A stretch of 60,089 bases of DNA, from the NCBI GenBank assembly GCA_016181895.1, contig JACOYL010000014.1:1-60089 (forward strand), read 5' to 3'. The translations under genes were made by a program, and so were the position numbers. Of this stretch, positions 13,985 to 55,930 are shown one piece after another (within the stretch, counting starts at the first letter, position 1; each line of letters begins with the position of its first letter). The DNA is from Candidatus Pacearchaeota archaeon (GTDB taxonomy: Archaea > Nanobdellota > Nanobdellia > Pacearchaeales > GW2011-AR1). The notes beneath the pieces were generated by a model. It was not told the origin of the DNA, made no database searches, and saw only the letters and a program-made list of their open reading frames with translations.

Positions 13985-14165
13985 AATTTCTTGAGATAAT
14001 TCTGATAAAAAATTTGTTCGATATTAATTCTTTGTTCATAGGCGGTGATAGTGAGCAAAATTCGTAGTAATTATTTAAAGAGGTTGATGTGCAATCCCAA
14101 TTTTAAAAGTTGATGAAAACTGTTTTTAGTTAAAATCAGTTCTTTGGGTGGTCGGGGGATTAGAG
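13985..14165 (+). repeat. GGGGTGGG-family intergenic repeat, copy at 14 kb
   Basis: Lies between two convergent genes. It contains GTTGATGTGCAATCCC, TTTTAAAAGTTGATGAAAAC, TTAAAATCAGTTCTTTGGG and GGTCGGGGGATTAGAGGCGGGG, aligning piece for piece with the 54.4 kb and 32.9 kb copies. Confidence 0.65.
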
Positions 14166-14516: not shown

Positions 14517-14580
14517 ACGCTCGCCTTTCGGCTCGCTTATTATTAATGGCTTATCATCAGCGTTCCGCACGATGCTTCGC
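14517..14580 (+). repeat. REP-like element, copy 2 (long form)
   Basis: ACGCTCGCCTTTCGGCTCGC, then TTATTATTAATGG and GCGTTCCGCACGATGCTTCGC. The same two blocks in the same order occur in inverted orientation at 17973-18034. Confidence 0.6.
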
Positions 14581-30445: not shown

Positions 30446-30772
30446 TTGAAGATCTTGTTGTGGAAAAATCAAAAGAGATTTTATCATTAACATTTGGTTT
30501 AGGGTGGGCGGTAAGCAAATTCATGAAAAAAATTGATATAGGAAAAGATTAATGCTAAAATTTTATCGTGAGTAAATAACTTATGAAACTCGGTTTTTAC
30601 ATTAACACTTTGTTTTTGGGGTGGGCGAACGCTTTGATTTTGACTATCTTTAAAATTAACAACAAAATCGGGGCGTGAGTAGGGTTGGGGCAAATTAATT
30701 AAAAGAAAAAATTCACAAACGAGTGGGGTCGCGAGTTGTCGGGGGATTGGTGGTGGGGCGATTAAAATTTAT
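30446..30772 (+). repeat. GGGGTGGG-family intergenic repeat, copy at 30.5 kb
   Basis: Fills the 339-bp gap between the converging gatB and transporter genes; no gene is seen. Order of pieces: AAGAGATTTTATCATTAAC, GGGTGGGCGG, AAAAGATTAATGCTAAAATT, TTATCGTGAGTAAATAA, GGTTTTTACATTAACAC, GGGGTGGGCGAACGC. Then comes the hairpin module (30629-30676) and a GGGGGATTGGTGGTGGGG end. Confidence 0.7.
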
Positions 30773-32768: not shown

Positions 32769-32860
32769 TAGATTAGACATCCCCTCCGTTCAAAAACATG
32801 CTCGCCTTCTACTCGTACCACGACTTTATATTAATAAAAATAAATTTGTCAAAGTCAAAA

Positions 32861-33092
32861 CACTCGGCTCGCTTAGATTAATGTAAAATCTGCTCATAAG
32901 TTGATAAAAGTTGTAAAAGATGGTTAACGATTAAAATTGGATTTTTAGGGGCGGGCGAGCAAGATTGCGAGTGAAATTGATATTCAATGGGAAAAGATTA
33001 ATGCGAAAATTTTATCGTTGGTAAATAATTAATGAAATTTGGTTTTTACATTAACACTTGTTTTTATGGGTGGGTGGGAACAAATTTTCAAA
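32861..33092 (+). repeat. GGGGTGGG-family intergenic repeat, copy at 33 kb
   Basis: Starts with CGGCTCGCTTAGATTAATG and contains two units. The second (AAAAGATTAATGCGAAAATT, TTATCGTTGGTAAATAATTA, GGTTTTTACATTAACACTTG) is nearly the same as the 30.5 kb copy. GAGCAAGATTGCGAGTGAAA links them. Confidence 0.7.
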
Positions 33093-38253: not shown

Positions 38254-39357
38254 TCATCTCATATCCTTTCCCATCAAAACCCTTTCCCTCAATCTGTTGA
38301 TTTCCTTGTTGAAAAATTCAATGGTTTCCTGCTTTTCAAAAATTGCAATCAAATCGTCGTTCCTTGCCGACAGGATTTCGTTGAGATTGCTGAACTTTAC
38401 AATCAATTCATTGACATGCCTTTCCGGAATCTTTGTTTTTCCCAGCAATCTTATTCCCTGGGGGGAAATCGGCTTGTCATACAATTCCTCGAACAAAAGC
38501 CTGGAAATGTTCCCGGATTCCAAAAGAAAATCAAAATTCATTTTCTCCAGCATGTCCATCGCGGACAAATATTTCGATGAAAAATAATCCCTCAAAATTA
38601 TTTCTTCGTCCTTGCTCAGATTCCCGATTAATTCTTTGAGTCGCATGCTTATGATGATTCCCTCTTTTCCAAGTTCAATCAAATACCTCCTCACGATTCC
38701 GGAAATTCTTTTTATTATTTCCAGCCTCTGAATTACATTGCATACGTCATTTACTGCCACAAGCCCGCCCATTTCCAAAATGTTCAAATTTGTAAGAAGA
38801 TAATCGTAAATTTCCCTCTGTTTTTCCAGAACTTGCAAAGTTTCCGAGGCTCGTCGCAAAATCTCGGAACTTTCCTTAAGTTCATATTTCACGTCGCCCA
38901 AATAAACCGTGATTTTATTTTTTCTCTCGGAAACCGCGATTACAAGAGCCTTTGTTTGTTTTGAAGTTCTCTCGGCGGCTTTGTGCCTTGTTCCAGTTTC
39001 TTTCGTGGGAATTTCAACGCTCGGAAACAGCAACGCGTTTGCGTGAAGAATTTTCTTTCCGTCCTTCGACAAAATTATCGCTCCGTCCATCTTTGCAAGC
39101 TCGACAAGCCTTTGCGAGGAAAATCTGGCGTTTATCCTGAATCCTTTTTCCGTGACGTTCGGAGTAAAATCGTTCTCGTATACAATCAACGCCCCCATTT
39201 CCGCATTCAGCAAATCGTCGAGCGCGGAACGTATCGAAGTTCCCGGAGAAATCATTTTCAAAACCTCGAGAAAATCCTTTTCAAAATCTTTTTTTTCCGC
39301 AATCTTGGTCTCGGAAATAACCAATTCCTTTACTTCCTTGTCCTTTACCTCTGTCAT
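38254..39357 (-). CDS. disA: Diadenylate cyclase DisA
   Basis: 367 residues with the full bacterial DisA layout: DAC domain (about 28-165), helical linker, and a C-terminal HhH-like region (IRLLGKTKIPERHVNELIVK, about 300-325). DisA makes cyclic di-AMP and scans branched DNA. Catalytic DGA is at 91-93; the RHR triplet is RHK (124-126, GTRHKAAER), a conservative change. Euryarchaea known to make c-di-AMP use the shorter DacZ, so a full DisA suggests transfer from bacteria. Monocistronic, convergent with the gene at 37922. Confidence 0.9.
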   Translation of the reverse strand: MTEVKDKEVKELVISETKIAEKKDFEKDFLEVLKMISPGTSIRSALDDLLNAEMGALIVYENDFTPNVTEKGFRINARFSSQRLVELAKMDGAIILSKDGKKILHANALLFPSVEIPTKETGTRHKAAERTSKQTKALVIAVSERKNKITVYLGDVKYELKESSEILRRASETLQVLEKQREIYDYLLTNLNILEMGGLVAVNDVCNVIQRLEIIKRISGIVRRYLIELGKEGIIISMRLKELIGNLSKDEEIILRDYFSSKYLSAMDMLEKMNFDFLLESGNISRLLFEELYDKPISPQGIRLLGKTKIPERHVNELIVKFSNLNEILSARNDDLIAIFEKQETIEFFNKEINRLRERVLMGKDMR

Positions 39358-39424: not shown

Positions 39425-39860
39425 TGAGATAAAAAATGTTTTTTTGCCCCGAAAAAATTCTCCATTAAAACTCGGTTTTTGAATGGGAGAGCAATTTCAC
39501 GAGTGAAATTGATATCCGACGGGAAAAGATTAATGCAAAATATTTATCGTCAGTCAATGGTTTCACAAGACGCAAATGGTTTATCATTAACTTTGGCTTG
39601 GTTTCTGGGGTGGGCGAACGCTTTGATTTTTAGTATCTTTAAAATTAATAATAAAGTCGGGCCGTGAGGAGAGCAACTTCGCGGGACAAATTTATTTTGG
39701 TTAGGTTAACGTGCAAAAGTTCCTTATCATTAGTTCATCAATTTCTCAAAATCGGATTTGCCATTAGCATGGATTTTTAAGGGTGGGAGAGCAATTTCGT
39801 GGCAGGTAGTATAATTAAGACATCAATAAGCTGTATGAGATTGCGAGTGGGTGGGAATAA
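39425..39860 (+). repeat. GGGGTGGG-family intergenic repeat, copy at 39.5 kb
   Basis: The longest copy (about 430 bp) filling the disA-DHS gap, with no gene seen. It shows four units separated by GGGNGGGAGAGCAAYTT boxes. A perfect CAATTTCAC-GA-GTGAAATTG hairpin is at 39492-39511 and the covarying hairpin module is at 39618-39665. A short reading frame (39479-39667) lies wholly in the repeat and is not taken as a gene. Confidence 0.7.
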
Positions 39861-44834: not shown

Positions 44835-45215
44835 CGTCGGCTCGCTGAAATTGGCTTATTCTATGAACTCGCATTTCTGTATAAATGATGATGAAAAATT
44901 TTAATGTAAAAAATTTATCTTCGGTTAATAGTTGCACAAAACATTAAAGATTTTTATGGTTAATATTGGTTTCTTTAATTAGGAAATTTGTGAAAAAAGA
45001 TTAATGTAAAATTCAGCATTAAATTACCATGATAAAATTTATTTGATAGTTAAATGGATTGCTGGGGTGGGAGAGCAACTTTGCGAAAATTATTTGAAAA
45101 AGGCTAATGTGCAAAATTCTTTACGGATGATTAATAATTGCTAATTGTTTTGTCATTTAACTTTTTTAGGGGGTGAGTGGTTGGGGGATTGGCGGCGGGG
45201 CGAATTGATTTGCAA
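44835..45215 (+). repeat. GGGGTGGG-family intergenic repeat, copy at 45 kb
   Basis: Fills most of the 461-bp gap before alaS. Contains TTTAATGTAAAAAATTTATC, GGTTAATAGTTGCACAAAAC, a GATTAATGTAAAATTCAGC unit, GGGGTGGGAGAGCAACTTTG, GGCTAATGTGCAAAATTC and a GTTGGGGGATTGGCGGCGGG end. No gene seen. Confidence 0.65.
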
Positions 45216-48489: not shown

Positions 48490-48700
48490 TGAAAATTGAA
48501 AATATTAATGTACAATCCCCTTATAAAAGTTGATTGATAGTTAACCTTGTTTTTTAGGAGCAAACAACTTCATAAGAATAATCTGAAAGGGATTAATGTG
48601 AAAAAGATTTAGAGTCGTTTAATAGTTGCACAAAGGTTAAATTTTTTATATTAATATCGAGTGGGGTTGCGAGGAGGGTGGGAAAAAATTAATTCAATAA
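48490..48700 (+). repeat. GGGGTGGG-family intergenic repeat, copy at 48.6 kb
   Basis: ATATTAATGTACAATCCCC, TATAAAAGTTGATTGATAG, TTAACCTTGTTTTTTAGGAG, then GGGATTAATGTGAAAAAG, TTTAATAGTTGCACAAAGG, and a GGGGTTGCGAGGAGGGTGGG end. Lies between two minus-strand genes. Confidence 0.6.
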
Positions 48701-51779: not shown

Positions 51780-51955
51780 CTTCTAAAAAAGGATAGTCGC
51801 AAAATAATTTACAAGTTGATTAAATCGGTTTTGACATTAATAGCCGTCTTCGGGGTGGGCGAGCAACTTGACTTTGACAATCTTAAAATTATTAATAATA
51901 AAGTCTGGTTGCGAGTTGGTCGGGGGATTGGTGGTGGGGAAGCAAAACACACTAA
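51780..51955 (+). repeat. GGGGTGGG-family intergenic repeat, copy at 51.9 kb
   Basis: Lies between endA and the next gene. Contains TTGACATTAATAGCCGTCTT, CGGGGTGGGCGAGCAACTTG, the hairpin module (51863-51912) and GTTGGTCGGGGGATTGGTGG. It happens to be open in the frame of the downstream gene, which produces a spurious 91-residue N-terminal extension. Confidence 0.65.
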
Positions 51956-51986
51956 AATTTATAATCCTCTTCTTTCTCTTTCACTC

Positions 51987-52899: not shown

Positions 52900-53025
52900 A
52901 AGTTTTAGTGTAATTAAAAGGTTAATGTAAAAAATTTATCGGGTTGGTTGATAGTTGAACAAAGCATTAAAGTTGTTTATTATTAAAATCTGTTTTTAGG
53001 GGGGAAAGAAATTAATTAATAAAAA
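52900..53025 (+). repeat. GGGGTGGG-family intergenic repeat, short copy
   Basis: AAAAGGTTAATGTAAAAAAT, TTATCGGGTTGGTTGATAG, TTGAACAAAGCATTAAAG and AATCTGTTTTTAGGGGGG. A single unit between two plus-strand genes. Confidence 0.6.
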
Positions 53026-54414: not shown

Positions 54415-54695
54415 CATCTGGCAATTATTTGAATTAGTTTAATGTGCAATTCTATTTTTAAAAGTTGATAAAAGCATTTTACAGTTAACATGGTTTTTAA
54501 AGGAGGGAGTCCGGGGGTTTGGCGGGCAACTTCGCGAGAATTACTTGAAAAAGATTAATACAAAAATTTATCACAAGTTAATATTTTATGGATTGTGAAT
54601 TTATCATTAATCCTTTTTTTGGGAGGATGGGTGGGAACTGAATTGATATGTCAAAAAAACATTGTTGCGAATTAGGGTTGGCGGGATAATTATAT
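54415..54695 (+). repeat. GGGGTGGG-family intergenic repeat, copy at 54.5 kb
   Basis: GTTTAATGTGCAATTCTA, TTTTTAAAAGTTGATAAAAG, CAGTTAACATGGTTTTTAAA, GGAGGGAGTCCGGGGG, GGCGGGCAACTTCGCGAGAA, then GATTAATACAAAAATTTATC and GGGAGGATGGGTGGG. No gene in 54399-54719. Confidence 0.65.
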
Positions 54696-55639: not shown

Positions 55640-55930
55640 TCTAAAATATTAATGTGTAAAACCATATCTCGATTATTAATAAAAAGGTTATAGATTAATA
55701 TCGGGATTAATATCGGCTTTCTTGGGGCAGGTGAGTGATTTGACTTTGACAATCTTAAAATTATTAAGAATAAAGTCGGGTTGCGAGGAGAGCAACTTTA
55801 CGAGGGAAATTTATTGGAATTAGGTTAACATGTAAAAATTCTTTTATCATTAATTTATCAGTTTCTCAAAGTTGGATTTGTCATTAACATGAATTTCTAG
55901 GGATGGGCGGTCGTGGTGATGGTGGTGGGA
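55640..55930 (+). repeat. GGGGTGGG-family intergenic repeat, copy at 55.8 kb
   Basis: AATATTAATGTGTAAAACC, GATTAATATCGGGATTAAT, GGCTTTCTTGGGGCAGGTG, the hairpin module (55735-55784), GGAGAGCAACTTTACGAGGG, GGTTAACATGTAAAAATTC, TTTATCATTAATTTATCAG, CATTAACATGAATTTCTAGG, then GGATGGGCGGTCGTGGTGAT. It runs into the 3' end of the tRNA-Cys gene. No gene in 55614-55916. Confidence 0.7.

Follow-up and report, generated by a model that had tools for sequence, protein, structure and literature searches.

A short hairpin with fixed ends, probably a discrete insertion element, in polar intergenic repeats of a Pacearchaeota archaeon

Although much work exists on the small palindromic repeats of bacteria, little is known of such repeats in Pacearchaeota and relatives, whose genomes are reduced. 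Rickettsia palindromic elements (RPEs), which are clearly longer than 54-57 nt, are short palindromic sequences inserted between genes and also, with the frame preserved, within coding regions. Pneumococcal BOX elements are modular composites, in which end modules enclose a variable number of an inner unit; to our knowledge, chromosome polarity is not a feature of theirs. REP families are tagged with GTAG or CGTC beside the palindrome (PMC3733652). The PATEs and small mobile repeats (SMRs) of Haloquadratum are archaeal, transposase-free and nested, show no target duplication and are built with near-terminal palindromes or as inverted-repeat units of ~110 bp, PATEs being derived from IS605-type ends (PMC3119063). 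Insertion of a single strand, coupled to replication, is described for IS608 and ISDra2 (PMC6006769), and AIMS are leading-strand octamers that increase toward the terminus (PMC5993296).

The window, a stretch of 60,089 nt, belongs to a genome of 736 kb in 24 contigs that is about 90% complete (G000) and whose LeuRS has its nearest relatives in Candidatus Pacearchaeota; its sister species is G001, and the stretches analysed amount to about half of G000. A preliminary description of the window had proposed four hairpins, all of which are present where it placed them. Two are of alpha type and 55 nt long, at 30626-30680 (+; covariance model match, E 2.1e-16) and at 39615-39669 (+; E 1.8e-13), the latter with a C-C mismatch. 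Two are of beta type and 57 nt long, at 55732-55788 (+; E 2.4e-15) and at 51860-51916 (+), the copy under study, whose assignment draws on the model match (51858-51916, E 6e-17), the stem counts and the ends CGAG..CGAGT. A reversed hairpin, of gamma type, occupies 32811-32866 (-; match 32811-32868, E 2.6e-13), immediately 5' of a unit A. With a probability of roughly 0.6, we regard this hairpin as a discrete, non-coding insertion element of ~54-57 nt that has spread as a folded single strand and lies within composite repeats pointing toward the replication origin.

The fold is supported by covariation within the genome and beyond it. The 14 copies of G000 share a 14-bp stem with 94.4% of the cells paired, and double-change cells number 24, where shuffles give 9.3 and none of 500 reaches 24; structures slid along the same copies pair at most 45% of the cells. 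RNAalifold, unprompted, gives the identical stem. Alignment of more copies preserves the pattern: in a set of 20 from two species, to which further gamma copies and four from G001 contribute, 96.1% of the cells are paired and double-change cells reach 36 against 12.6 in shuffles. Across 62 distinct sequences, in an alignment fitted to the covariance model and hence leaning toward it, 94.8% of the cells are paired, with compensatory changes in 13 of the 14 pairs (175 cells, against 43 in shuffles). An independent MAFFT alignment displays the same covariation by eye. Folded singly, three of the four window copies are better than shuffles (z -2.9, -4.1 and -3.6), and the 39.6 kb copy is no better (z +0.2).

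Most details of the pairing as first proposed were borne out. The 51.9 and 30.6 kb copies do differ by the four double changes, and every position of the 55.7 kb copy pairs when G-T wobbles are used. The claim of a single mismatch needs amending, as the 39.6 kb copy has, besides its C-C, a T-T at the innermost pair, and the 51.9 kb copy also contains a T-T. The asserted one-strand bias of the wobbles holds, with 15 G-T against 2 A-C cells outside the fixed UUU/GGG block; another count outside the U block gives 43 against 9. On the folding strand the stem reads a-YUU-b / b'-GGG-a', where the block is UUU/GGG, UUU/AGG or UUU/AAG depending on lineage, and most copies end CGA/GAG. The CGAG/CGAG ends could close the stem through the pairs C-G, G.A, A.G and G-C, that is, with tandem G-A pairs. 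Since such end pairing is stable in RNA and likewise in DNA, the fold leaves the two equal. The strand-biased wobbles fit a form in which one strand folds, and a single-stranded DNA intermediate would leave an identical signature.

A discrete unit is indicated by the ends and by empty sites. The hairpin is about 54-57 nt long, up to ~63 nt in one relative, with fixed ends CGAG...CGAGT. In one genome with 24 copies (G017), near-identical 54-nt copies stand in unrelated contexts, their flanks differing and their agreement confined between CGAG and CGAGT. When exactly this stretch is excised and its flanks are joined, the product is a sequence that occurs uninserted elsewhere for about 8 of 37 sites; displacing the cut by 15-30 nt lowers this number to 0-1. 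At the clearest of these, a 54-nt insert lies within a duplicated tRNA 3' end, of which 28 of 29 nt equal the intact copy. The joined flanks of the window copy at 30626-30680 equal an uninserted copy at C22:16555-16514 (88% over 42 nt, gapless), and those at C20:5891 agree with C10:69547 over 92% of 51 nt. Such matches leave little or no extra sequence and no clear target duplication. Insertion is deduced here from paralogous sites, as no strain-level presence or absence was seen. A further interspersed repeat, AGCGAAAAACCTGACGAAG..GTTTTGAGCATATCAATAAGCGAG, is a target of gamma hairpins (G000 C20:5.9 kb, C10:57.6 and 69.5 kb).

Copies are also found inside genes. At six loci in other genera (G014, G015, G016, G037, G038) open N-terminal coding sequence contains the hairpin in antisense orientation; lengths of 57, 54, 57, 57 and 111 nt are divisible by 3, one of 56 nt is not, and the frame is open through the element. 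The coding copies end at KRS, before Q or T and then a hydrophobic stretch, a junction that presumably resembles a class III signal peptide cleavage site. Compared by description only, the hairpin is like RPEs in being intergenic and, at five of the six coding loci, in frame, and differs from them in being archaeal, in its length of 54-57 nt, in its CGAG ends and in its wobble block. Insertion into N-terminal leaders would have a parallel in another domain of life.

A descriptor of the hairpin finds 14 copies in G000, where shuffles give 0.75, and 9 in G001, where they give 0.25. The covariance model matches 16 of 56 genomes, nearly all from one archaeal family and spread over several genera. 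Seven of these have matches at E<1e-6 (G000, G001, G008, G015, G017, G038 and G040); in the remaining nine the matches are weaker and some perhaps due to chance. The hairpin is a structured repeat family common to several genera of one archaeal family. In some relatives copies adjoin tRNA genes. Tandem head-to-tail copies occur at L250 (G009 C18), L268, L290 and L251, and in G008 and G009 the hairpin stands at the 3' end of a gene that appears to be shared by the two and, by eye, is Dph2-like. Phage, plasmid and viral-contig sources yielded nothing by blastn or by one exact pattern, and the open-access literature that we searched holds no description of the element. It is apparently one of the smallest insertion elements known. 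With a covariation-supported fold, defined ends and empty sites, an element of 54-57 nt offers a concrete object for asking how elements without genes move.

In G000 the hairpins sit in composite intergenic repeats made of a unit A, a G-run, hairpins and a G-rich end. Unit A is about 90 bp long, has inverted ends GATTAATGT..ACATTAAC and terminates in GGGGTGGGCG. At E 0.1 or better its profile R1 matches G000 121 times, which corresponds to about 100 to 115 units because some matches are the palindrome read on both strands; among the 37 genomes searched, only G000 and G001 contain it. On the plus strand of the window, units A lie at 14078-14155 (R1 E 2.6e-9), 30543-30628 (7.2e-17), 32874-32959 (1.8e-10), 32992-33078 (4.4e-18), 39524-39617 (1.3e-11), 39702-39791 (7.9e-16), 52916-53004 (7.2e-11) and 55818-55910 (4.3e-16). 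Three stand in tandem at 44894-45180 (5.3e-8, 5.2e-7 and 2.2e-10), two are found at 54432-54632 (7.2e-8 and 1.3e-10), and two degenerate ones at 48499-48661 (4.3e-5 and 9.1e-6). The 3' part of a unit directly precedes the 51.9 kb hairpin (51799-51863, 3.8e-8), and another unit precedes that at 55.7 kb (55643-55735, 6.5e-5). The G-rich end module GGTCGGGGGATTGGTGGTGGGG, of repeat family D5, was located by pattern scan at 51918-51939 (+) and also at 14150, 30737 and 45179. RNAalifold predicts no structure for unit A, and a hairpin following every unit A was rejected (mean z -0.24 over 69 units). As a pair of inverted ends of ~90 bp, unit A recalls REPINs, and the composite with its end modules recalls BOX, a likeness drawn by description only. 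Within a genome the copies form mosaics and have been partly homogenised. Orthologous gaps of the two species hold degenerate composites with conserved orientation, the degeneration indicating that much of the repeat family is old.

Along each contig the composites run in one direction, irrespective of how the genes are oriented. Neighbouring unit clusters on one contig share their orientation in 38 of 41 cases in G000 (p=1e-8) and in 20 of 22 in G001; the three cases that differ in G000 come from a single flip inside C1 and a single reversed cluster on C9. Module polarity counts are 43/8 for the five-half, 15/0 for the three-half and 30/3 for GGGGTGGGCG, and the G-rich end module in the pattern scan is oriented five times with contig polarity and never against it. 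Hairpins of alpha and beta type are oriented with the polarity of their contig, whereas those of gamma type, just 5' of a unit A, face the opposite way, so that no constant relation holds between the folding strand and replication. Genes between the units are housekeeping genes on both strands, and the gaps that hold composites (26 codirectional, 11 convergent, 9 divergent) show no dependence of orientation on the flanking genes. A general role as transcription terminator or UTR element was rejected, as the gap types match background and the orientation ignores genes.

This orientation is likely toward the replication origin. A probable origin lies beside Orc1/Cdc6 at C13:19.75-20.55 kb of G000 (L207), with a counterpart at C9:0-0.75 kb of G001. 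Directly upstream of orc1/cdc6, both species have a 27-bp inverted pair and repeated TTTTCCTGTGGAAAA-like dyads, which we take to be what archaeal origin boxes should look like. By synteny, contig C9 of G001 joins the left ends of C13 and C22, and all units on C22 point back toward the origin, a reading that assumes G000 to have the G001 order at that region. On the other side of the origin, three GGGNGGG motifs on C24 of G001 also point back. Fourfold-site skew leans the same way, weakly (0.17 and 0.20 for the single measures; 0.003 when they are combined in a score that was chosen afterwards). The orientation of the composites provides a testable case of archaeal chromosome polarity marks.

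We hypothesize that the hairpin, as the unit CGAG...CGAGT, would spread as a folded single strand, either ssDNA or RNA. A putative enzyme, supplied in trans, may recognise the hairpin by its shape, so that the sequence could drift without loss of the fold. The larger intergenic composites that contain the element in this genus likely point toward the origin, and their polarity may arise either from selection or from replication-coupled insertion; coupling of single-strand insertion to replication would explain it. A Y1/RAYT enzyme is unsupported as the mover. The Y1 transposase (PF01797) is absent from G000, itself about 90% complete, and the two Y1 genes of G001 (145 aa; L233, L234) are ordinary IS200-type ones with end hairpins of their own; unit-like sequence near these loci falls outside the IS. 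The hairpin resembles REPs and REPINs as a high-copy intergenic palindrome folding on one strand, and differs from them in the lack of a RAYT in G000 and of a GTAG/CGTC-type tag, its ends being CGAG..CGAGT in most copies. Like PATEs and SMRs, it is nested in repeats and inserted without clear target duplication; unlike PATEs, it has no relation to IS200/IS605 ends that we could find in G000 or G001, and it is about half the size of SMRs.

The preliminary description had read the covariation as selection on a plus-strand RNA. One part of this stands, as covariation, wobble asymmetry and the CGAG/CGAG ends point to a folded one-strand form that is selected or repeatedly regenerated. The identity of that strand as RNA does not follow, and a small mobile hairpin is the better fit to the empty sites, to the copies in coding sequence and in the tRNA duplicate, and to near-identical copies whose contexts are unrelated. 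A functional RNA motif, in which the hairpin works at the RNA level, in a plus-strand transcript, as a protein-binding, processing or termination signal, therefore seems to us rather unlikely. G-U pairs with few A-C pairs, the possible tandem G-A pairs and the copies adjoining tRNA genes would suit it, whereas the discrete empty sites, the antisense copies within coding sequence and the indifference of composite orientation to flanking genes would not. Nor does any Rfam family match: a covariance-model search of 51780-51960 gave no match up to E 5, and the whole window at the gathering threshold gave two tRNAs and nothing else.

It is improbable that the composites are polar G-rich DNA signals, read by a translocase or by repair or replication machinery in the manner of KOPS or AIMS and kept in direction by selection. 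Their orientation would follow replication as that of AIMS and KOPS does, every module is polar, the polarity is strong in two species and conserved in orthologous gaps, and the apparent direction is toward the origin. However, unit A is confined to one genus, the elements are long, mosaic and repeat-like (structured repeats of 50-100 bp), and their G-rich strand, apparently pointing to the origin, would have lagging-strand sense, opposite to known KOPS and AIMS. We give still less weight to a mutational origin, in which template switching or gene conversion corrects imperfect palindromes time and again and paired double changes accumulate without function or mobility. The mosaic, partly homogenised copies would agree with it; yet correction predicts Watson-Crick pairs, whereas a UUU/GGG wobble block has been retained together with GA ends that do not pair; the fixed boundaries and the empty sites also speak against it. 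The insertion element that we favour could also be taken further, as an independent mobile element of ~55 nt, recognised by structure as single-stranded DNA or RNA and the smallest of its kind in archaea, which together with its host repeats marks replication polarity, and whose peptide in the N-terminal leader of membrane proteins might be cleaved before a KRS|Q-type signal site. This extended version we hold to be doubtful.

Two other features of the window deserve mention. A pair of 59-nt inverted repeats, 75% complementary and with GCTCGCC..GGCTCGC-type ends, lies at 14517-14575 and 17973-18031 and represents another repeat family. At 38254-39357 (-), this Pacearchaeota genome encodes a DisA-type protein with DAC and DisA linker domains.
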